Shown: one piece after another, positions 4,646-56,102 of the stretch
Layout of the letters: each line of letters starts with the position of its first letter
Position numbering within the stretch: position 1 is the stretch's first letter
The notes under the pieces: model-generated
The model's database searches: none
Seen by the model: only the letters and a program-made list of their open reading frames with translations
Told to the model about the DNA's origin: nothing
DNA from: Kyrpidia tusciae DSM 2912
GTDB taxonomy: Bacteria; Bacillota; Bacilli; Kyrpidiales; Kyrpidiaceae
Direction of reading: 5' to 3'
Assembly (NCBI RefSeq): GCF_000092905.1
Contig: NC_014098.1
Location: 2,604,001-2,668,000 of the forward strand
DNA: 64,000 bases
Translations under genes and position numbers: made by a program

Positions 4646-6124
4646 TCACCGATCCTGTTGGGGATTCTGTATGATCTGTCGGGCCTGCTGGTCAATGAGG
4701 GCAATCTGCTGGGCAATGGCTTCATCGTAACCCGGGCAATGGCCGTACAAATCCGTATACCGGGCCTTAGCCTCGGCGATGCGCCCGGTCAGCCCGCATA
4801 GGTTCGCCTGGAGGAGATCGGCCTTCCAGGCGTGAATATCCGCATCTACGTTGACCAACCCGGCGTAGTCGTCCCCTTGAGCCCGAAGGCGGCGCAGATC
4901 CTCTTCGGCAGCTTGGAGAAGCCGCTTGGCCTTTTCCACCCGAATATGGGCCAAATAGTAGTGCGAATCCGGAAACTGGGGGTCTGTTTCCTGCATCCGC
5001 TCGGCCACCCGCTCCGCTTCGTCGTAGGCGGACTCAAACAGATACGCCTGAACCAACAGCCTCTGGATCTCCAGAAGCGCCCCGAATCCCGGCGTGGTCT
5101 TGGCCCGTTCCTCCGCAGCCAGGAGAAGGCTCGTCCCCTTTTTGACGTCGCCGGCGGAAAGGACTTCCCGCCCCAGGTACATCAACCAGGTCGGGTCTGC
5201 GGGTTCTTCTTGCACCATTTGGTTCAAGAGGCGAATATTCCTCTGCAGTTTGGCGCGAATATCTGTGTGTGCCGGATCGTAGCCGTCGTGCAGGATTCGA
5301 ATCATCACCAGGTAGTCCCGGGTTCTCAAGTCTGTGTAGCGGTTGCCTTTCACAGGGGCGATCTGTTCGTGGATCCGTCCGTGAAAGCGAAGATCCCCTC
5401 GCCGGGGGAACAGGCGGGGAACGTTCATGGCAATGGAAGTCGTGGAGCCCAGGCGGTTGACAATCATCGGATGAAGAACCGGGGTTGGGGTAACGGCATC
5501 CAGCATAGCAGCGGCTTCCCGGATCAATGGTTTATCATCGGGGTGCACCCATTCGTCGGCATCGATCCAAAGCACCCAATCGGCAGCGATGTGGTCCAGG
5601 CCAAAATTCCGCGCTGCGGCAAAATCATCCTTCCACGCATAGAACAGGACCCGCACACCCGGAAACGTCTCGGCCAAGGCGGCCGTGTCATCGGTGGAAC
5701 CCGTGTCCACCACCAGGATTTCGTCCACCGCTCCCTTCAAACTTTCCAGACAGCGGCCAATGCACCGGGACTCATTCTTCGCCACAATGACCGCCGCTAC
5801 CGTCGGAACCCGCGGCCACGCCAACAGTTGCTCCACGAGAGGGTGGCTGCGACCGTTATTCAAGATCGGGTCTCCTTCTTCCGCCGGACCATTCCAGCGG
5901 GCCAGTTGTTTCTGCGGCTGAAACAAGTAAGCCCTGCGAAACGCCTTCCGTGCGGAGGTGCCGTATCCTTGGCGCAACAGGGCTTCCCCCAGGATCTCCC
6001 ATGCCTTCGTATCCGCCGGGTCAGCCCGGAGTGCCTTGAATCCGAGTCGCTCGACTTTGATCCAGTCTTTCTCCTCCAGCGCCCGGCGCATTTCCTCATG
6101 AGGCGGAACCGTCGGCCCCCGCAT
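4646..6124 (-). CDS. GT2 glycosyltransferase with TPR repeats
   Basis: A 492-residue protein with three parts. A short TPR-like N-terminus (about 10-75) is followed by a family 2 glycosyltransferase domain (about 105-330) with the nucleotide-binding VVDTGSTDDT stretch (138-147) and a DxD-type WIDADEW motif (186-192) that binds metal and sugar nucleotide. The C-terminus (about 330-480) is helical with TPR-like repeats. Related Firmicute proteins glycosylate peptides, proteins or cell-surface glycans; no substrate can be named here. Start ATG at 6124 with GGAGGG 6 bases upstream. The gene is 59 bp upstream of the helicase start on the same strand, so the two may share a transcript. Confidence 0.88.
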   Translation of the reverse strand: MRGPTVPPHEEMRRALEEKDWIKVERLGFKALRADPADTKAWEILGEALLRQGYGTSARKAFRRAYLFQPQKQLARWNGPAEEGDPILNNGRSHPLVEQLLAWPRVPTVAAVIVAKNESRCIGRCLESLKGAVDEILVVDTGSTDDTAALAETFPGVRVLFYAWKDDFAAARNFGLDHIAADWVLWIDADEWVHPDDKPLIREAAAMLDAVTPTPVLHPMIVNRLGSTTSIAMNVPRLFPRRGDLRFHGRIHEQIAPVKGNRYTDLRTRDYLVMIRILHDGYDPAHTDIRAKLQRNIRLLNQMVQEEPADPTWLMYLGREVLSAGDVKKGTSLLLAAEERAKTTPGFGALLEIQRLLVQAYLFESAYDEAERVAERMQETDPQFPDSHYYLAHIRVEKAKRLLQAAEEDLRRLRAQGDDYAGLVNVDADIHAWKADLLQANLCGLTGRIAEAKARYTDLYGHCPGYDEAIAQQIALIDQQARQIIQNPQQDR

Positions 6125-6959: not shown

Positions 6960-7652
6960 GTGACCGTGAAAGGATCGATTTCAAAACGTCCGAAGGTTCG
7001 TCGTGCGGCCCTGTGGTGGGCCGCCGGTTCCGTGGCCGTCACCGTCCTCGCGGGGTGTGGCGCCACCGCAAGCCCCGACAGCGGCACGGCCGCCCAGGGG
7101 CAGGGTGGAGTCATTCAAAACACTTCCCAGGCCCAGGACCTGCGTCAAGCCAACTGGCACATTCAACCATACCAAGCGACCGATCAGGACGGAAAACCGT
7201 TTAACACCGATCAGATGAAAGGAAAAATATGGCTGGCGGACGTCATTTACACCAACTGTCCCACCATGTGTCCGGTGATGACGCCGAACATGGCCCAGGT
7301 GCAGAAAAAGTTAAAAGAGGCCGGGACCTCGGCGGAAATTGTATCCTTTAGCTGCGACCCCGACACGGACAAACCCGAGGTCTTGAAGAAATACGCCGAA
7401 CGCTACAACGCCGATTTAAAGACGTGGCATTTTGTCACCAGCCCGGGGTTTGATATCACCAAGGATTTCGTGTTCAAAAGCTTTCATTCAGCTTTGACGA
7501 AAAATCCCCCGGAGGTATCCGGAGGCATCACCATGTACAACCATACGACCCAATTTTTCCTAATTAATCGCAACGGCCAAATCGTCAAGATGTACGACGG
7601 CTTGAAACCACCTATCGACCAGATCGTCCAGGATGTCAAAGCCCTTGAATGA
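6960..7652 (+). CDS. SCO1/SenC family copper-binding lipoprotein
   Basis: A 230-residue lipoprotein: hydrophobic signal sequence ending in the lipobox LAGC (Cys33), then a thioredoxin fold with TNCPTMC (Cys100 and Cys104) and a distal YNHTTQ His (195). These two Cys and the His are the copper ligands of SCO proteins, which deliver copper to, or reduce, the CuA site of cytochrome c oxidase. It should act on the outer face of the membrane. GTG start at 6960 with a GGAAAGG site 6 bases before; a second GTG two codons on is possible. No oxidase genes are adjacent; it stands alone between the kinase fragment and an HD hydrolase. Confidence 0.92.
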   Translation: MTVKGSISKRPKVRRAALWWAAGSVAVTVLAGCGATASPDSGTAAQGQGGVIQNTSQAQDLRQANWHIQPYQATDQDGKPFNTDQMKGKIWLADVIYTNCPTMCPVMTPNMAQVQKKLKEAGTSAEIVSFSCDPDTDKPEVLKKYAERYNADLKTWHFVTSPGFDITKDFVFKSFHSALTKNPPEVSGGITMYNHTTQFFLINRNGQIVKMYDGLKPPIDQIVQDVKALE

Positions 7653-7748
7653 CATGGGCGCTCTTCGCCCGCGATCCATTCCCAGTATATACCGCACATC
7701 AAGGCTGCGGAGTTCCTCGTAATGCGAAGTCGTTCGCCTCCCGAAGCG

Positions 7749-7780
7749 AGCGGCGGGGATTCACCCGCCGCTTCCCTTTC
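7749..7780 (+). terminator. Hairpin between convergent genes, possible terminator
   Basis: Perfect 9-bp stem AGCGGCGGG (7749-7757) and CCCGCCGCT (7764-7772) with a 6-base loop, followed on the plus strand by a pyrimidine-rich TCCCTTTC stretch. It lies between the end of the SCO gene and the end of the convergent HD gene. The T-tract is weak. Confidence 0.5.
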
Positions 7781-8366
7781 AACTTTCCGTCCCGGAAGCC
7801 TGAGCGCCCTCCAGCCCCAGTTCCCGGGCTGCACCCTTTAGAGCCTCGATGACAAACCCGATATGCTCATCGAGATCCACCCCGAGCTCCTCAGCACCCC
7901 GGCGCACATCTTCTCGGTTGACCCCCCGGGCAAAGGCTTTGTCCTTCAGTTTTTTCTTGACGGCCGGAACGTCCACATCGTCAATACTTTTCGTCGGCCG
8001 GACCAAAGCCACGGCGGTGATAAACCCGGACAGCTCATCACAGGCGTAAAGACACTTGTCCATCAAGTGTTCCCGGGGCACGCCGAGATAATCGGCGTGG
8101 CTGAGAATTGCATGGATGACATCCTCCGGGTAGCCTCTCTGCCGAAGGATCTCGGCGCCTCGGGTGGGATGGTCCTCGGGAGATGGCCAGCGGTCGTAAT
8201 CAAAGTCGTGCAATAGCCCCACAATCCCCCATTTTTCCTCATCGTCCCCATACTTGCGGGCATAGGCCCTCATGGCCGCCTCTACGGCCAGGGCGTGTTT
8301 GATGAGATTCGGGTTTTTCGTGTACTCGTTTAACAGTTCCCATGCCGCCTCGCGATCGAGTGACAT
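7779..8366 (-). CDS. HD/HDIG domain hydrolase
   Basis: A 195-residue protein. His24 and the HD pair in LLHDFDYD (residues 53-54), with further His in EDHPTRG and ILSHADYLG, form the metal-binding pattern of HD-type phosphohydrolases. The length and the DELSGFITAVALVRP segment are typical of a widespread single-domain HDIG family. The substrate is unknown; nucleotides are common for the fold. ATG start at 8366 behind GAGGAGGC. It lies head to tail, 14 bp downstream, with the UPF0637 gene, so the two may be cotranscribed. Confidence 0.8.
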   Translation of the reverse strand: MSLDREAAWELLNEYTKNPNLIKHALAVEAAMRAYARKYGDDEEKWGIVGLLHDFDYDRWPSPEDHPTRGAEILRQRGYPEDVIHAILSHADYLGVPREHLMDKCLYACDELSGFITAVALVRPTKSIDDVDVPAVKKKLKDKAFARGVNREDVRRGAEELGVDLDEHIGFVIEALKGAARELGLEGAQASGTES

Positions 8367-47684: not shown

Positions 47685-48719
47685 TCACCCCCCGATCTGG
47701 GACATGCGGCGGACAGTGGGCAGATGGCTGCGTTCCTTCCCTTCCAAGGCTTCCGCCATCTCGTGACGCTCTGGCTTAATGTCCAGAGCTCGGTAAAACA
47801 TGGCCTCTAAGGCTGCTTCGTCGCCGTTACAGCGTCGGACGTTCAGTTCTTCCTGCCAATACAGGCACGGTTTTAGATAGCCGTCCGCGGTCAAGCGTAG
47901 TCGGTTACAGGCTGAGCAAAAATGTGCACTCACTGGATGAATGAGTCCGAAAGCCCCCGCCCCGCCCCGAATGCGCCAATTTTCCGCGGGGCCGTTTCCC
48001 GGCACGGCCGTCGGCTCGATCTCATACCCCAACTCCGCAGCGCGTTCCAACACCCGGTTCAAGGGCAGGTACGCTTCCTTCCATGTCTCATCTTCGTGCC
48101 CGATGGGCATATATTCGATAAACCGCACCACATACGGTTTTTCCACCGAAAGGCGCAGAAAATCGTCAATTTCCTCTTCGTTCAGGCCCTTCATCAGGAC
48201 CACGTTGATCTTGATGGGAGCCATGCCCACCCGCTCCGCCTCCTCCAGCCCGCGCAACACCCTGGCGAGATCCCCACCCCGGGTAATTTTGGCAAAGCGG
48301 TCCGGTTTTAATGAATCGATGCTGATGTTGATCCGCCGGAGCCCCGCCCGGAACAGCCGTTCGGCACGGCCGGCCAGAAGAAGGGCATTGGTGGTCATGG
48401 CCATGTCTTCAATCCCCGGAATCGCTCCGAGGGCTTCAATCAAGCGGTCGATGTCCGGCCGGACCAAGGGTTCCCCCCCGGTGATCCGCAGCCGCTTGAC
48501 CCCGAGGCGGGCCGCCACACGCACCACGGTGACGATCTCTTCGTAGGTCATCAACCGCCGGGATTCCATGAATTGAACCCCATGCGCGGGCATACAGTAC
48601 AGGCAGCGAAGATTGCAGCGGTCGGTGACGGAAATGCGCAGATAATCGTGAACCCGTCCGAACCGGTCCACCAGCCGGCCGGTGCCTACCGAATCATCCA
48701 GACAAATCAAGGGTTCCAT
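47685..48719 (-). CDS. moaA: GTP 3',8-cyclase (molybdenum cofactor)
   Basis: A 344-residue radical SAM enzyme for the first step of molybdopterin synthesis. The SAM cluster is CNLRCLYC (Cys35, 39, 42); the second [4Fe-4S] site is CSACNRLRLTADGYLKPC. The TGGEPL motif binds SAM. The usual C-terminal GG tail is present (SQIGG). ATG start at 48719. It lies 45 bp after mocA on the same strand and probably belongs to the cox maturation unit. Confidence 0.94.
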   Translation of the reverse strand: MEPLICLDDSVGTGRLVDRFGRVHDYLRISVTDRCNLRCLYCMPAHGVQFMESRRLMTYEEIVTVVRVAARLGVKRLRITGGEPLVRPDIDRLIEALGAIPGIEDMAMTTNALLLAGRAERLFRAGLRRINISIDSLKPDRFAKITRGGDLARVLRGLEEAERVGMAPIKINVVLMKGLNEEEIDDFLRLSVEKPYVVRFIEYMPIGHEDETWKEAYLPLNRVLERAAELGYEIEPTAVPGNGPAENWRIRGGAGAFGLIHPVSAHFCSACNRLRLTADGYLKPCLYWQEELNVRRCNGDEAALEAMFYRALDIKPERHEMAEALEGKERSHLPTVRRMSQIGG

Positions 48720-48764: not shown

Positions 48765-49469
48765 CTATTGGGCCCTGGTCGAGGGCGGTTCGGGATCGAC
48801 CCGTTTTCCTTGCGAACGGGAATGGTCGCCGCAACCTTGTTGAACCGGCAGAAACGTCTTCAGCAGCTGCTGATAGGCATGGGGCGTATCGATATCCAAA
48901 CCCGCCCGTTCATCCCCCCAGGGCACCATCTTCATGCGGTCCCGGTGACGGGCGAGAACGGACCGGCCGCCTTCGTCCCCGGTGATCGCCATCATCTCAG
49001 CAAAAAGTTCTTCATCGATCAGAACCGGGTGGCCGGGCAATCCCTCAAAAGTCGGGCGAACAATGCGCACCCCAGCCTTATACCCCATCTGGTATTCCTG
49101 AAGCAACGCCGAAATCAGCGATTCCGTCACCAACGGTTGGTCAGCGAGTAGGATCATGACGGCCTGCGCGCGTCCCTGTAGCTGGTCCAGACCTCGAATC
49201 AATGACGTGGACATCCCTCGATGGCGTTCCGGGTTGGGCACCACCTCCACAGTCCGATCTTTGACCACCTCGCGGAACGGCCGCGGGTCTTCGCTCCCCA
49301 CGAGAATCACCGGGTGAAGACCCGCCCGAACCGCGGCTTCCACGCTGTACAAAAAAAGCGGCCTTCCTCCCAGCGGCAGCCAACACTTCGGCCTCCCCAT
49401 GCGGGTGGACAGACCGGCCGCTAAGATCACCGCGCCCACCCGGCGTTCTACATCCCCCGGCCCGATCAT
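48765..49469 (-). CDS. mocA: Molybdenum cofactor cytidylyltransferase (MocA-like)
   Basis: A 234-residue nucleotidyltransferase. The N-terminal ILAAGLSTRMGRPKCWLPLGG is the nucleotide-binding loop, followed by LLADQPLVTE and GLPGHPVLID. MocA-type enzymes make the molybdopterin cytosine dinucleotide used by CO dehydrogenase-type hydroxylases, which fits the neighbours. The ATG at 49469 overlaps the stop of the truncated xdhC (ATGA) and has GGTGGGGG before it. The C-terminus ends in a short charged extension. Confidence 0.85.
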   Translation of the reverse strand: MIGPGDVERRVGAVILAAGLSTRMGRPKCWLPLGGRPLFLYSVEAAVRAGLHPVILVGSEDPRPFREVVKDRTVEVVPNPERHRGMSTSLIRGLDQLQGRAQAVMILLADQPLVTESLISALLQEYQMGYKAGVRIVRPTFEGLPGHPVLIDEELFAEMMAITGDEGGRSVLARHRDRMKMVPWGDERAGLDIDTPHAYQQLLKTFLPVQQGCGDHSRSQGKRVDPEPPSTRAQ

Positions 49470-49627
49470 AGAGCCCCCACCTGAAGTGCCCCGGATCGCA
49501 CCCACCTCCTCGCCCCGGCGTGGAGATAGGCGGACCCTTCTACCCCGGCCACCAGCGCTATGGCCACCGGGCGTCCGGCTTCAGATTCCGCCAACCCGGC
49601 CTCAAAGATATCTTCGAGATCCCGCAT
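49466..49627 (-). pseudogene. Truncated XdhC/CoxI family gene (first 53 residues)
   Basis: A 53-codon frame starts inside the end of coxE and stops at the mocA start. Its product (RDLEDIFEAGLAESEAGRP, then VAIALVAGVEGSAYLHAGARRW) matches the start of XdhC/CoxI proteins, which normally read ATVVxTxGSxPRxxGAR. The family is normally 250-380 residues; the GGGC motif and NAD-like domain are missing. XdhC proteins insert the sulfurated Mo cofactor. The overlaps with both neighbours suggest a clean internal deletion. A functional micro-protein is less likely but not excluded. Confidence 0.6.
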
Positions 49628-50843
49628 CGCGTTTTCCTCCCGCAGCAGATGGTTTTTCCAGGTCGCCTAGGCGTTCCCACGCCTCTTCAAAATTACGCCA
49701 ACTGTAGCCCGGCCAGTGGTGATCCACCGCACCCGCCAACCGCACCCCACCTCGGGCGGTGGGCTCGTAGTCGGGATCCGATCTGGCCGGGTTGAGCCAT
49801 ATAGTGCGGCTTGCAAGCCCCCGCAGTCTCCGCACCTCCACGCCAAGCGCCTCCGGATCTTCCGCCTCAAGACCATCGGTCACCAATATCAGAACGGACC
49901 CCGGCAAGAGCCGCCGACCCCATTCCAAGCGCAATCGCCGCAGTCCGGCCGCCAGCCGGGTGCCTCCCGACCAATCCGGCGCCCCGCCGATCATTTCCGC
50001 CAAGGCTCGATCCGCGTCTCGCAACGCTAAAGCCGGAGTCAACCGAGTCAAGCGGGTACTGCAAACAAAGAGTTCCACCGGATTTCCCGCCCTGGCCACC
50101 GCGTGCACGAACCGCAGCACCATCCGGCTGTAGGGCTCCATCGAGCCACTGATATCACAGACCCAGACAGATCGTCGCCTGCGCACCATCCGCCGGCGGC
50201 GTTTGAGTTCCAAACACTCCCCGTACCGGGCGGCACTCCGGAGGGTAGCCGACGGATCCCAGTGCCGCCCCTTTCGCCCGGTTCGCTCCCTTCGGCTGGA
50301 CCGCCACAGAGGAGCCAAATCCACCCTTTCCAATTGCCGCAGTTCCTCAGGCGTCAGCCGGGCGGCATCCCGATCGCGCAGCGTTTCCTCGGCACTCCGG
50401 CCGCCCCGCACCACGAGGGGGACCTGCGCCTCGGACTGCGATGGTTCGGAGTCGTCGCGACCGGCCCCCAGCCAGATCACCTGCGGGGGGTTCCGCCAAG
50501 ACGCCCGCAGCCTTGCGACACTCGCCATGAGCGTCTGGGTGGCAACGAGGGGTTCCCGGACCCCGACCAGCATCAGGACAAACTGCCGCCAAGCGATGTC
50601 AAACCATTGCCGCTCCGTCGGATTGTGGGCCAAGATCGCCCGCCAACCCTCCCGGATCGCCGTTTCGTCCCCCGGTGGGAGACAGGCCAAGGCCTCAACG
50701 GCAAGCGCCTCTTGTTCTGCGCTCACGGGAATCCCCATTCGCCGCAGCCCCCGAAAAAACGCCGCACAGTTGGCAAGGATCCGATTCCCGCTCGCAAGCA
50801 GCGCCCGCTCCGAGAGCAGATGATCCCCTCTCTCCGTGCTCAT
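49602..50843 (-). CDS. coxE: CoxE-like von Willebrand factor A protein
   Basis: A 413-residue protein. A helical N-terminal half leads to a VWA domain with the metal-dependent adhesion motif DISGSMEPYS (about residue 230), and later GGTRLAAGL and LVTDGLEAED. CoxE works with the MoxR ATPase CoxD to activate the Mo hydroxylase active site. The ATG overlaps the coxD stop (ATGA), so the two are translated together. An Arg-rich stretch (KRRRRMVRRRRSVW) precedes the VWA domain. Confidence 0.88.
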   Translation of the reverse strand: MSTERGDHLLSERALLASGNRILANCAAFFRGLRRMGIPVSAEQEALAVEALACLPPGDETAIREGWRAILAHNPTERQWFDIAWRQFVLMLVGVREPLVATQTLMASVARLRASWRNPPQVIWLGAGRDDSEPSQSEAQVPLVVRGGRSAEETLRDRDAARLTPEELRQLERVDLAPLWRSSRRERTGRKGRHWDPSATLRSAARYGECLELKRRRRMVRRRRSVWVCDISGSMEPYSRMVLRFVHAVARAGNPVELFVCSTRLTRLTPALALRDADRALAEMIGGAPDWSGGTRLAAGLRRLRLEWGRRLLPGSVLILVTDGLEAEDPEALGVEVRRLRGLASRTIWLNPARSDPDYEPTARGGVRLAGAVDHHWPGYSWRNFEEAWERLGDLEKPSAAGGKRDAGSRRYL

Positions 50844-51766
50844 CCCGGCATCGCCTCGATCTCGCCAAGCAGATCTGCAAAATAGGGCCGATCTTCTCGC
50901 ACCGCGGTGAGAACTTCCACGTCATCCCGGTATTTCACCAAACACCCGAGGGTCTCTTCCACGACTTTGGGATCCAATGACCGGGCTCCCAGGGCGGAAA
51001 GCGCCTCGGCCCAATGGATCGTCTCCGCCACCCCGGGCCTTTTATAGAGGGGTTCCCGGCGTAGCCGCTGGACGAATTGACAGATCCGAATCGCCAACTC
51101 CCGGGGAACCCCGGGCACCTTGAGACGCAGGATCTCCAACTCCTTCGAAAAATCCGGATAATCGATCCAATGATACAAGCAACGACGCTTCAACGCATCG
51201 TGAATTTCCCGGGTCCGATTGGACGTGAGAATGACCACCGGCTTCTCCTCGGCCCTTAGAGTACCAATCTCCGGGATCGTCACTTGAAACTCCCCGAGCA
51301 GTTCCAAAAGAAACGCCTCAAATTCCTCATCGCTCCGGTCCACCTCATCGATCAACAAAACAGGCGCGGGCCCTTGGGAATCCACGGCCGCGAGTAACGG
51401 CCGTCGCAACAAGAAGCGACGGGAAAAAAGCTCCCCTTCGAGTCGTTCTCTCCAAACTTTCTCCGTCTCCCCCTGCCCACCACCGGGCATCCCGGCCGCC
51501 TCCGCCAGACGGATGTGGAGCATCTGGCGAGGAAAATCCCATTCGTACAGGGCGCTCTCCCGGTCGATCCCTTCGTAGCACTGAAGGCGGACAAGGGGGC
51601 GGCCGACGGCTGCGGCGATCACCTTCGCCACCTCCGTCTTGCCCACCCCCGGTTCTCCCTCGAGAAAAAGAGGCCGCTCCAGCCGCAAGGTCAAAAACAC
51701 CGCGACGGCAAGGGAATGATCGGCAATATACCCTTCCCGGCGAAGAGCCGACCGGACGGCCTCCAA
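50840..51766 (-). CDS. coxD: MoxR-type AAA ATPase (CoxD)
   Basis: A 308-residue AAA+ protein. Walker A GEPGVGKTEV (about 38-47), RLQCYEGIDRESALYEWD, Walker B VLLIDEVDRSDEEFEAFLLELLGE, sensor 1 LTSNRTREIHDALKRRC. MoxR/CoxD proteins act as ATP-driven chaperones that mature CO dehydrogenase (CuMoS site). A TTG start is given. It has no good ribosome site, and a CTG seven codons earlier is possible. It has its own promoter and a leader hairpin. Confidence 0.88.
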   Translation of the reverse strand: MEAVRSALRREGYIADHSLAVAVFLTLRLERPLFLEGEPGVGKTEVAKVIAAAVGRPLVRLQCYEGIDRESALYEWDFPRQMLHIRLAEAAGMPGGGQGETEKVWRERLEGELFSRRFLLRRPLLAAVDSQGPAPVLLIDEVDRSDEEFEAFLLELLGEFQVTIPEIGTLRAEEKPVVILTSNRTREIHDALKRRCLYHWIDYPDFSKELEILRLKVPGVPRELAIRICQFVQRLRREPLYKRPGVAETIHWAEALSALGARSLDPKVVEETLGCLVKYRDDVEVLTAVREDRPYFADLLGEIEAMPG

Positions 51767-51939: not shown

Positions 51940-52794
51940 TCAGGGGAGACACCGCAGCAAAGCCTTTCGGGTGTAGACCCGGCTCAGATGCCGGCGGTAA
52001 TCCTCCGATGCAAAGAGGTCTCCGGAAAAACTGCCCTCGGCATCAGCCCGTTCTGCGGCCCGGCGCACCGTCTCCTCCCCGGCGGGCTGGCCGATCAAGG
52101 CTGCTTCCACCTCCCGGGCTCGGTACGGCGTATCCGCCACTCCGGTTATCCCTACCCGTGCGTCGCGGATTGCACCGTTCTCCACTCCGAGAACCGCCGC
52201 CACCCCCGCCACCGCATAACCAGAGGCCGGGTGGGGATATTTCTCGTACGCACCCTTCCAAGAACCCTGGGGGATTGGGAAGGCCACGGACACCACCACG
52301 TCGCTTGCCCCGAGAGACGTGAGCAGGGGGCCGAGAATAAAGTCCGCCACCGGCACCTCACTTCGTCCGCTCGGACCCTCGATCGTGACCGTGGCATCCA
52401 AGGCCAGCGCCACCGCAGGCAGATCTGAGGCCGGATCGGCATGGGCGATGTTGCCCCCCACTGTGCCCCGGTTTCGTACCTGGAGATCCCCTATCTGCTT
52501 TGCGGCTTCCGCAAGCACCGGCAACTTGTCGCGAACGATATCGCTCGACGCCACCTCATAGTGAGTCGTTAAAGCTCCCACCACCACCCGGCTTCCTTCC
52601 ACCGAGATACCGCGGAGTTCGGAGATACCACCGATATCGATCAGCACCCCGGGAGAGGTGAGCCGCAGTTTCAACAGCGGAATCAGGCTGTGCCCCCCGG
52701 AGAGGACCTTCGCCTCCCCTTGATGGGCTTCCAGCAATTGCACTGCTTCCCGAACCGATCGCGCCCGTTCGTACGCAAAAGCTGCTGGAATCAT
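51940..52794 (-). CDS. coxM: CO dehydrogenase-family medium (FAD) subunit
   Basis: A 284-residue flavoprotein. The FAD motifs SGGHSLIPLLKLR (about 32-44) and NRGTVGGNIAHADPASDLP (about 108-126) are intact. It passes electrons from the [2Fe-2S] subunit to quinone or another acceptor. The ATG overlaps the coxL stop by one base (TGATG). Last gene of the S-L-M order. Confidence 0.93.
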   Translation of the reverse strand: MIPAAFAYERARSVREAVQLLEAHQGEAKVLSGGHSLIPLLKLRLTSPGVLIDIGGISELRGISVEGSRVVVGALTTHYEVASSDIVRDKLPVLAEAAKQIGDLQVRNRGTVGGNIAHADPASDLPAVALALDATVTIEGPSGRSEVPVADFILGPLLTSLGASDVVVSVAFPIPQGSWKGAYEKYPHPASGYAVAGVAAVLGVENGAIRDARVGITGVADTPYRAREVEAALIGQPAGEETVRRAAERADAEGSFSGDLFASEDYRRHLSRVYTRKALLRCLP

Positions 52795-55136
52795 CAGGCT
52801 TCCCTCCCATGGATGACCTTCCAGATCTTCTCCGGCGTCAACGGCATCTCCAGGTCGGTGACTCCGAAAGGCGCCAGAGCATCGACCACCGCGTTGACCA
52901 CGGCAGGCGTTGCGGCGATGGTGCCCGTTTCTCCGATCCCTTTGACCCCGAGGGGATTATGCGGAGCGGGCGTGACGGTGTGGGCGGTCTCAAAGGCCGG
53001 GAAGAATTTCGCTTTGGGCATTGCGTAGTCCATGAAAGAGCCCGTCACCAGCTGCCCCTGCTCGTCGTACACCGCCCCTTCCCACAGTGCCTGGCCCACT
53101 CCCTGTACGATCCCGCCGTGCACCTGGCCTTCGACGATCATCGGATTGATCACCGGCCCGCAATCATCCACCGCCACGTAGCGGAGAATCTCAATCTTCC
53201 CCGTTTCCGGGTCCACTTCCACGACACAGGCATGGGCGCCAAAGGGATAGCAGAAATTCACCGGATCATAAAACGCTTGGGCCTCAAGGCCCGGCTCCAC
53301 CCCGGGCGGGAGGTTCCACGCCAGGTGAGCTTGAAGAACCACGTCCTGGAATTTCACCTGACGGCTGGGCACCCCTTTCACCTGAAAAGTTCCATCTGCA
53401 AATTCAACATCCTCTTCGGACACTTCGAGCATATGTGCGGCGATCTTCCGGGCCTTTTCCAGCACCCGGTCAGCGGCCACGGCAATGGCGCTGCCCCCCA
53501 CCGGCGTTGTCCGGGATCCGTAGGTTCCCCACCCCATGGAGATCCGGTCGGTGTCGCCGTGAACCACCTCCACATCTTCCACCGGAATTCCAAACCGATC
53601 TGCCACAATCTGGGCAAAGGTGGTCTCTTCCCCTTGACCGTGGGGCGAGGCGCCGGTGAACACCGTCACTTTGCCGCCTGGGTGCACCCGCACCGTGGCG
53701 CTCTCCCACAGACCGCCCTGGAATCCCACAGCGCCGGCCACCTGTGACGGCCCGAGTCCGCAAATCTCGACATAGGTCGACCATCCGAGGCCGACGTACC
53801 GGCCCTGAGCCCGGAGTCTCTCTTGCTCCTTCCGGAACTCTTCGTAATTGAGCATATCCATGGCTCTTCGCAGGGTTCCCTCGTAGTCCCCGCTGTCATA
53901 TTGCAGCCCTAGAGCCGTCGTGTAAGGAAACGCATCTGACGGAATGAAATTCTTCTTCCGAATCTCCACCGGATCTTTTCCAATCTCTTTGGCAAACAGG
54001 TCGGCCATCCGCTCGATCACATAGGTGGCCTCGGGCCTCCCCGCCCCTCGGTACGCATCCGTCGGCGTGGTGTTCGTAAAGACCCCGAACACGTCGACAT
54101 GCGCCTTGGCGATCCGGTACGGCCCCACCGTGATCAATCCAAAGAGGATCGTCGGCACCCCCGGCGCCGCCGTGGACAGGTAAGCCCCCATGTTCGCCAC
54201 CATGCGAATCCGAAGTCCCACCATGGTTCCGTCCCGCTTGCCGGCCAACTCGGCGTAGATGACCTCATCCCGGCCATGGGTCGTAACGAGAAAATTCTCC
54301 CGGCGATCTTCGGTCCATTTCACCGGCCGCCCCAATTCGCGCGCCGCAAAACCCACTAAAGCCTCATCGGCATAACAGGCAATCTTACTGCCGAATCCCC
54401 CTCCCACATCCACCGCGACAACCCGCAGCTTATGTTCCGGAATACCTAGAATATTCGACAAAAGAAAACGGTGAATGTGCGGGTTTTGGGAAGTGAGCCA
54501 CATGGTCATCTCACCGCTTCCGGCGTTATATTGAGCCACCGCCGAACGCGGCTCCATCGCGTTCGGAATCAGCCGCTGTTGGCGAAACCGATGGCGCACC
54601 ACCACATCGGCCCCTTCGAATTCCGCCGCCGGATCTTCCCCCGCCTGCCAGTGGAACGCCACGTTCCCGGGCGCGTCGTCGTGCAACACTGGCGCCCCTT
54701 CTTCCATCGCCTTCTCCGCATCCACCACCGCCGGCAAAACCTCGTAGTCGACCTCGATCAACTCCAGGGCATCCCGGGCCGCGTAGCGGCTCTCGGCCAC
54801 CACCATCGCCACGCCGTCCCCGACATAACGCACCTTTTCCACCGCCAGGGCCGGATGGGCCGTGGTCTTGATGTCCGAACCCGGAGGGAGCCACGCCGTG
54901 GGAATCGGCGCCACTTTTCCGGCCACATCCCCACCGGTGAACACCGCCACCACCCCGGGGGCCCGCTTGGCCTTCTCCACATCCAGCCGGCGAATCTTCG
55001 CATGGGCATGGGGGCTGCGCAAGATCGCCGCATACAACATACCGGGCAGCTGCACGTCATCCGTGTACCGACCGTTGCCGGTAATGAGCCTCGGGTCTTC
55101 CCGCCGTTTGATCGCTGTGCCGAACACGCTCGCCAT
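52794..55136 (-). CDS. coxL: CO dehydrogenase-family large molybdenum subunit, form II
   Basis: A 780-residue Mo-MCD subunit. VDVGGGFGSKI, the active-site loop AYRGAGR (residues 361-367) and the GIGETGT stretch with the active-site Glu near the C-terminus are visible. True form I CO dehydrogenases have AYxCSFR with the copper-binding Cys; here the form II loop is present and that Cys is missing. Form II enzymes may oxidise CO weakly or act on other small substrates, so CO use is not proven. The ATG at 55136 follows AAGGAGGG; the frame extends upstream into coxS. Confidence 0.92.
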   Translation of the reverse strand: MASVFGTAIKRREDPRLITGNGRYTDDVQLPGMLYAAILRSPHAHAKIRRLDVEKAKRAPGVVAVFTGGDVAGKVAPIPTAWLPPGSDIKTTAHPALAVEKVRYVGDGVAMVVAESRYAARDALELIEVDYEVLPAVVDAEKAMEEGAPVLHDDAPGNVAFHWQAGEDPAAEFEGADVVVRHRFRQQRLIPNAMEPRSAVAQYNAGSGEMTMWLTSQNPHIHRFLLSNILGIPEHKLRVVAVDVGGGFGSKIACYADEALVGFAARELGRPVKWTEDRRENFLVTTHGRDEVIYAELAGKRDGTMVGLRIRMVANMGAYLSTAAPGVPTILFGLITVGPYRIAKAHVDVFGVFTNTTPTDAYRGAGRPEATYVIERMADLFAKEIGKDPVEIRKKNFIPSDAFPYTTALGLQYDSGDYEGTLRRAMDMLNYEEFRKEQERLRAQGRYVGLGWSTYVEICGLGPSQVAGAVGFQGGLWESATVRVHPGGKVTVFTGASPHGQGEETTFAQIVADRFGIPVEDVEVVHGDTDRISMGWGTYGSRTTPVGGSAIAVAADRVLEKARKIAAHMLEVSEEDVEFADGTFQVKGVPSRQVKFQDVVLQAHLAWNLPPGVEPGLEAQAFYDPVNFCYPFGAHACVVEVDPETGKIEILRYVAVDDCGPVINPMIVEGQVHGGIVQGVGQALWEGAVYDEQGQLVTGSFMDYAMPKAKFFPAFETAHTVTPAPHNPLGVKGIGETGTIAATPAVVNAVVDALAPFGVTDLEMPLTPEKIWKVIHGREA

Positions 55137-55149
55137 AGCCCGTCCCTCC

Positions 55150-55629
55150 TTAACCCCGCATCCGCTCAGCGGCATATTTGACCGCGCGGACGATATTCTC
55201 GTATCCCGTGCACCGACAGATGACTCCTTCCAGACCTTCGCGAATCTCCTCATCGGTGGGATTGGGATTTTGCCTCAAAATCTCCACCGCCGTCATCATC
55301 GCCCCGGGGGTGCAATACCCACACTGGAGACCGTGCTTCTCCCAAAACCCTTCCTGCACCGGGTGAAGCTGACCCTCCTGGGCCAAGCCTTCCACCGTGG
55401 TGATTTCGTGGCCGTCGGCCTGAACAGCCAGCACTGTGCAGGACTTGACCGCCCGGCCGTCTATGAGCACCGTGCACACCCCGCATTGGCTGGTATCACA
55501 GCCAATGTGAGTCCCCGTCAGCCCCAGCACATCCCGGAGAAGATGCACCAACAACAGCCGGGGCTCCACCTCTGCCGTGCGTTCCACGCCGTTCACTTTG
55601 AGGCTTACCACCGTTTTGGTCGCCGCCAT
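55150..55629 (-). CDS. coxS: CO dehydrogenase-family small [2Fe-2S] subunit
   Basis: A 159-residue ferredoxin-like subunit with two [2Fe-2S] clusters. Proximal plant-type site: GCDTSQCGVC (Cys44, 49, 52) plus Cys64. Second site: CGYCTPG (Cys103, 106) and CRCTGY (Cys138, 140). It shuttles electrons from the Mo site to FAD. The gene is 13 bp before coxL. Confidence 0.95.
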   Translation of the reverse strand: MAATKTVVSLKVNGVERTAEVEPRLLLVHLLRDVLGLTGTHIGCDTSQCGVCTVLIDGRAVKSCTVLAVQADGHEITTVEGLAQEGQLHPVQEGFWEKHGLQCGYCTPGAMMTAVEILRQNPNPTDEEIREGLEGVICRCTGYENIVRAVKYAAERMRG

Positions 55630-55655: not shown

Positions 55656-56102
55656 CTATGACTGTGCCCGCTTAATCTCCTGATCGACACCTTTGAAAAA
55701 CTGCCCCAATAACAACTTCGCCACCCCACCCATGATGCGCTGGCCCACCGAAGCCATGATTCCCGTGACATGGGCATCGGCGGAGCATATCAAGATCGTG
55801 TTCCCGTCCTGTTGCTCCAGGCGGATTTGGGCCAGGGCATCGATTCCCCCAGGCTTTCCGCTCCCTTTGACATGCAGCTTGTACTCTTGCGGCGGATGGG
55901 GATCCCGCACCTCCACCTCTCCAGTAAACGTGCCTTTGACAGGCCCCACATCGAGCCCCAGCTCCGAGGTGTACTTCCCTTCTCCCACTTCCTCCAACCG
56001 TTTGCATCCCGGGAGCCGACGCTTTAACACATCGGGATCATTCAGAATCGACCACAACTCCTCCGGCGTTGTTTGGTATGTATATCGGTATTCGACGCGC
56101 AA
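55656..56102 (-). CDS. coxG: CoxG-like SRPBCC protein
   Basis: A 148-residue START/SRPBCC-fold protein: YRYTYQTTPEELWSILNDPDVLKRRLPGCK at the N-terminus, KGTFTGEVEVRDPHPPQEYKLHVKG in the middle and a C-terminal amphipathic helix (GGVAKLLLGQFFKGV). CoxG helps attach CO dehydrogenase to the membrane. The TTG at 56102 follows GGGGGAG by 7 bases; the frame upstream to 56216 lacks a site. First gene of the cox group, 26 bp before coxS. Confidence 0.82.
   Translation of the reverse strand: MRVEYRYTYQTTPEELWSILNDPDVLKRRLPGCKRLEEVGEGKYTSELGLDVGPVKGTFTGEVEVRDPHPPQEYKLHVKGSGKPGGIDALAQIRLEQQDGNTILICSADAHVTGIMASVGQRIMGGVAKLLLGQFFKGVDQEIKRAQS

Follow-up and report, generated by a model that had tools for sequence, protein, structure and literature searches.

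An in-frame internal deletion has reduced xdhC to a 53-codon relic in the Form II cox operon of Kyrpidia tusciae

The DNA analysed here, referred to as the window, is a stretch of 64,000 nucleotides (G000:C1:2604001-2668000) from the single-contig genome of the thermophilic bacterium Kyrpidia tusciae, which comprises 3,384,766 bp. On the minus strand the gene order is coxG, coxS, coxL, coxM, coxD, coxE, a 53-codon open reading frame (ORF), mocA and moaA. The features of the locus, in window coordinates and with G001 denoting a congener, are as follows.

55656-56102, minus strand: coxG-like gene, start uncertain
55150-55629, minus strand: coxS ([2Fe-2S] subunit), read by eye from the sequence
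52794-55136, minus strand: Form II coxL, with AYRGAGR motif and a dN/dS of 0.04 against G001
51940-52794, minus strand: coxM (FAD subunit), profile match
50840-51766, minus strand: coxD (AAA ATPase); identity to Form I CoxD in the same genome about 50%
49602-50843, minus strand: coxE (VWA), PF05762
49466-49627, minus strand: xdhC relic, 53 residues, made of the first 45 and the last 8 codons of its ancestor
49489-49492, minus strand: junction of the deletion, which removed 975 bp that G001 (L034) still has; the exact breakpoint is ambiguous within the GGGG microhomology
49466-49469, minus strand: relic stop and mocA start overlapping in ATGA; the likely mocA ribosome-binding site, CAGGTGGGG, lies just upstream
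48765-49469, minus strand: mocA-like cytidylyltransferase, 234 residues from ATG, PF12804 (TIGR03310 152.3 bits, below the cut-off of 186.45)
47685-48719, minus strand: moaA, Radical_SAM and Mob_synth_C

The AYRGAGR motif of CoxL and the S-L-M gene order identify the cluster as a Form II Cox operon. CoxL scores below every NCBIfam cut-off listed, the best value being 814.1 bits against 991.15 for TIGR02416, and CO oxidation by the enzyme is only putative. The mocA product is the top scorer among ten PF12804 places in the genome. According to the available text of PMC7248562, Kyrpidia spormannii carries a Form II aerobic CO dehydrogenase-like operon that is alike in coxG-S-L-M and in the AYRGAGR motif; in the window coxD and coxE follow, and the xdhC that is deleted here is intact in G001. 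We infer that G001 is a K. spormannii EA-1-like genome because both CoxL forms are present in it.

The 53-codon ORF shares 26 nt with the end of coxE, and ATGA with the start of mocA. Both overlaps had been pointed out in a sequence-only reading of the window, which took the ORF for an XdhC/CoxI protein in frame between coxE and mocA, and this identification is upheld by a Pfam profile search in which the ORF gave a weak match to PF02625 (XdhC_CoxI) above the cut-off (25.7 bits, E 1.1e-5, cut-off 24.3). The lack of XdhC profile similarity named in that reading as speaking against it was thus not seen with PF02625; NCBIfam profiles gave no match at E 0.001. The PF02625 match spans profile positions 3-38 of 68, and its final part derives from the C-terminal tail, in which the few Pfam-matched residues are fortuitous. 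Descent from an xdhC gene is documented by a colinear full gene in G001 and in G002, which belongs to the same genus. In G001 the place between coxE and mocA is occupied by a 378-residue XdhC with both domains (L034 5492-6625, minus strand), and G002 also has a full xdhC at this place. The ancestral gene encoded a two-domain XdhC related to the solved structures 3on5 and 2we7.

The window aligns colinearly with G001, at 94% identity on one side of the gap and 89% on the other, and the G001 gene (1137 nt) exceeds the window ORF (162 nt) by 975 nt, or 325 codons. On the left flank GGGG follows CGATCC in both the window and G001; on the right flank GGGG is followed by CACTTC and, in G001, preceded by CGATGG. 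As GGGG is common to both ends, the junction is placed inside it; the placement was made by hand from the sequences and gene lengths, MAFFT having misplaced the gap. The last eight residues of the relic, GALQVGAL, are the original XdhC C-terminus (GALQVGAP in G001), so the earlier reading of the ORF as a bare N-terminal end is incorrect. The ORF is the remnant of a full xdhC after an internal in-frame loss of 975 bp with a 4-bp microhomology. The sequence-only reading had proposed to check whether the deletion is shared; it is absent from G001 and G002, and a contig scan with a CoxE alignment (three loci) revealed no second strain of the species. That the gap is an assembly error in the deposited genome is extremely improbable: although the comparison has one genome per species, the microhomology is only 4 bp, and the sequence published for K. 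tusciae is a finished assembly with 5.5x Sanger and 25.2x 454 coverage. A one-base frameshift or base-loss sequencing error, foreseen as a possible flaw in the sequence-only reading, was rejected because 975 bp are absent. Relocation of the missing segment was also rejected, as profile and sequence searches found it nowhere else in the genome, and so was a split XdhC with its C-domain in another gene, since the lone C-domain ORF is what is left of Form I CoxF and has a YHS domain.

Although the first 45 residues of the relic align with the XdhC/CoxI family (PF02625 plus PF13478), it is short of 325 codons, of the SGGC cysteine and of the entire Rossmann domain. Its XdhC_CoxI N-terminal domain (68 positions) is incomplete, and the XdhC_C Rossmann domain (PF13478) occurs at two places in the genome, neither of them at the relic. 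The SGGC cysteine, which we take to be Cys82 of Rhodobacter capsulatus XdhC, is present in 30 of 34 aligned homologues. In the available text of PMC2997495 Cys82 is termed highly conserved. Because it has neither this cysteine nor the Rossmann domain, the relic is, judged from its sequence, almost certainly not a working XdhC. With G002 as outgroup and the 34-homologue alignment as guide, the changes R35L, M41R and L42W belong to the relic's own lineage and fall at conserved columns: 26 of the 34 homologues have R at the first and one has L, while none has R or W at the second and third, respectively. The alignment takes up to three sequences per genome, which are hence non-independent. Over the 45 relic codons there are three nonsynonymous and two synonymous changes in its own lineage and none and one, respectively, in that of G001, one site being ambiguous; the pairwise dN/dS against G001 is 0.47 (four nonsynonymous, three synonymous changes). 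The substitutions suggest relaxed constraint, the counts being too small for a test. They argue, few as they are, against a function of the 53-residue peptide itself, for example as a mini chaperone or regulator. Such a role is very improbable in spite of the intact frame and likely ribosome-binding site, as the peptide has no SGGC cysteine and the sole other stop-interrupted PF02625 match in 299 genomes, in G068, looks decayed. A family of natural short XdhC proteins was rejected on the same count. The G068 fragment (L059, G068:C1, about 5750-5910), from an unrelated genome, is an XdhC N-terminal part with a stop near profile position 40; no cox gene is among the ORFs listed within about 3 kb, and it has the appearance of a decayed pseudogene.

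The retained tail of the relic carries the likely mocA ribosome-binding site and the ATGA overlap, both of which are also found in G001 and G002, the G002 equivalent of CAGGTGGGG being CAGGTGGGGACGTCATGA. This arrangement is inherited. Since the deletion spared both ends of the gene and its reading frame, it is expected to be non-polar: ribosomes that finish coxE would translate the 53 codons and then restart at mocA. This fits a continued need for the downstream mocA; yet chance alone keeps the frame in a third of deletions. The idea that the stub couples mocA translation is compatible with the ribosome-binding site and ATGA in the tail, and the in-frame deletion ends 5 to 9 nt before the conserved CAGGTGGGG..ATGA element. 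That the relic was kept by selection as a coupler passing ribosomes from coxE to mocA is nevertheless unlikely: with a single event, and a one in three chance of keeping frame, selection for the frame cannot be shown, the coupling elements were inherited, and the mocA site could work alone. Coupling and the service of another XdhC to the Form II enzyme, discussed below, are not exclusive and can both hold.

PF02625 finds two places in the genome, the relic and a 351-residue ORF, and PF13478 finds the latter and a 243-residue ORF. The search for a full-length xdhC elsewhere, proposed in the sequence-only reading, therefore yields one intact XdhC, of 351 residues, which lies next to what remains of a Form I CO dehydrogenase cluster, convergent to coxE of that cluster. 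It is about 30% identical to the lost XdhC and belongs to a different clade. The remnant lies outside the window.

G000:C1:2835882-2840989 (L036 4884-8056 and 8079-9131): Form I remnant

In G001 the Form I cluster comprises coxM, coxL with AYRCSFR, coxF, coxG, coxD and coxE, and G003, G045 and G049 have the same Form I genes together with a 351-type xdhC (with coxE read in two frames in G049). In the remnant only the C-terminal part of coxF is left, coxG has a 30-residue deletion and a changed putative start, and coxD, coxE and the 351-residue xdhC are still open. Form I coxM and coxL were not found in the 32 kb surrounding the remnant; homology to G001 starts at what is left of coxF, and the 23 kb upstream of it gave no match. 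Among the PF02738 places of the whole genome no Form I CoxL was found, and the available text of PMC7248562 gives K. tusciae as lacking it. In the cox cluster of Oligotropha carboxidovorans, as presented in the available text of PMC4240915, coxD, coxE and XdhC-like helpers are in common with the window's genome; that cluster encodes a Form I enzyme and coxF is required for CO use, whereas here Form I coxF and Form II xdhC are both broken.

Three PF02738 large subunits are encoded in the genome: the Form II CoxL, a xanthine dehydrogenase matched by the PucD profile at 910 bits (cut-off 783.65), and a third CoxL-like protein that is below all NCBIfam cut-offs listed. The genome-wide profile search gave no PF02625 match near either of the latter two. 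The PucD cluster lies at L051 (G000:C1:2002000-2016000) and has no linked XdhC. G001 has three PF02738 places, namely its Form II and Form I enzymes and one whose arrangement resembles that of L052, and so seems to lack the PucD cluster.

Some genomes have relatives of the 351-residue XdhC next to Form I clusters. In the related metagenome-assembled genome (MAG) Bu84 such a relative accompanies the Form II operon, its gene being directly upstream of coxG-S-L-M-D-E on the same contig.

L060, about 7045-8094 of the reversed contig, reverse strand: 351-type xdhC of Bu84

The Bu84 operon has the same coxG-S-L-M-D-E order as the window, its CoxL being 79% identical; it differs in the xdhC upstream of coxG, and no xdhC or mocA is among the ORFs listed after coxE, whereas the operons of G001 and G002 have both genes there. 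The Bu84 XdhC is 63% identical to the 351-residue protein and 29% identical to the lost type. It is the only PF02625 place, and the Form II CoxL the only PF02738 place, in this 1.5-Mb MAG, which may be incomplete. The surviving XdhC type would thus, by linkage in Bu84, be the chaperone of a Form II enzyme elsewhere. In MAG Bu37 (G003, 79% complete) no xdhC or mocA was found in the 16 kb of the Form II contig, which begins just before coxL, so that the region upstream of coxG is outside it; its two XdhCs are both in the Form I cluster.

Co-occurrence of PF02738 and PF02625 was surveyed in 299 genomes of the class with completeness of at least 90%, taken as one draw. The enzyme is present in 104 and XdhC in 101; 99 genomes have both, five the enzyme only, two XdhC only and 193 neither. 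The best PF02738 E-values of the five enzyme-only genomes range from 5.4e-61 to 1.6e-13, and 98 of the 99 genomes with both score better than 5.4e-61, the exception being G080 (7.0e-51). In this class, one is thus rarely present without the other. The proposal that the Cox enzyme no longer needs XdhC is disfavoured. In 26 of the 99 genomes with both, that of the window included, enzymes outnumber XdhCs, in a tally of places that includes short N-domain proteins and the G068 fragment.

One intact XdhC, the Bu84 linkage and the class-wide co-occurrence make service by another XdhC the best supported of the three options that the sequence-only reading had offered, and the 351-residue protein probably now serves the Form II enzyme in trans. 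The Form II enzyme would still be made, and the 351-residue XdhC would help to insert and sulfurate its molybdenum cofactor, which would explain the tolerated loss of the dedicated xdhC. R. capsulatus XdhC is reported to bind the cofactor, to be needed for sulfuration and to be able to insert the cofactor (PMC2997495). The xanthine dehydrogenase and the third CoxL-like enzyme would likewise depend on the 351-residue protein, which perhaps serves them too. Against this reading count its low identity to, and separate clade from, the lost XdhC and the description of XdhC proteins as system-specific in PMC2997495; the possible incompleteness of the Bu84 MAG also counts against action in trans.

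Selection bears on the same question. Against G001, dN/dS in the Form II region is 0.04 for coxL, 0.10 for coxM, 0.03 for coxD, 0.20 for coxE, 0.34 for mocA and 0.04 for moaA; it is 0.09 for the 351-residue xdhC and, for Form I genes, 0.08 for coxD, 0.27 for coxE (VWA part) and 0.11 for the coxF remnant. Own-lineage synonymous and nonsynonymous changes number 27 and 4 in Form II coxL and 16 and 5 in the 351-residue xdhC. The raised values of Form I coxE and mocA count against the in-trans reading, and purifying selection on the 351-residue XdhC could stem from the xanthine dehydrogenase alone. It is rather unlikely that loss of xdhC marks an early step of operon decay, with a Form II enzyme no longer properly matured and CoxL inactive or nearly so. 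In its favour, decay has already overtaken the Form I cluster of this genome, and dN/dS is raised in mocA and Form II coxE; but Form II coxL, coxM and coxD are intact, with dN/dS of 0.03-0.10, and coxL changes are predominantly synonymous. The coxF remnant, which encodes no whole protein, still has a low dN/dS and illustrates how a broken gene can look conserved; such values therefore prove no function over so short a time, which weakens the selection argument.

Action of the 351-residue XdhC in trans may be part of a wider exchange of chaperones, which we put forward tentatively. In one loss the Form I CO dehydrogenase would have gone, with the adjoining XdhC, CoxD and CoxE kept; in another the dedicated Form II XdhC would have gone, with its enzyme kept. 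The orphaned XdhC would possibly have become the single chaperone shared by Form II Cox, xanthine dehydrogenase and the third enzyme, and its loose partner choice would have been reshuffled in nature. One XdhC for several molybdenum hydroxylases was called speculative in a 2010 review (PMC2997495), and phrase searches of the literature found no paper on K. tusciae and XdhC together, nor on a truncated or lost xdhC. In effect, xdhC has been knocked out naturally in this genome, apparently without polar effects, with one XdhC left intact and three enzymes as its candidate clients. As the search of this genome gave no Form I CoxL, the case is also relevant to the function of Form II 'CO dehydrogenases'.

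Form I CoxF was observed to have a C-terminal YHS domain, a putative metal-binding domain, in all four full copies examined and in the remnant.

L035 4467-5471, L037 9932-10942, L039 10788-11798 and L040 7229-8260: full coxF copies with YHS
L036 4884-5606: coxF remnant with YHS

Literature searches found no paper pairing CoxF with a YHS domain; the domain would agree with a part of CoxF in copper delivery, as proposed in PMC4240915. The coxF remnant (L036 4884-5606) has a dS of 0.087 against G001 (L035 4749-5471), beside a Form I coxD with a dS of 0.44, a contrast that hints at different histories of neighbouring segments.
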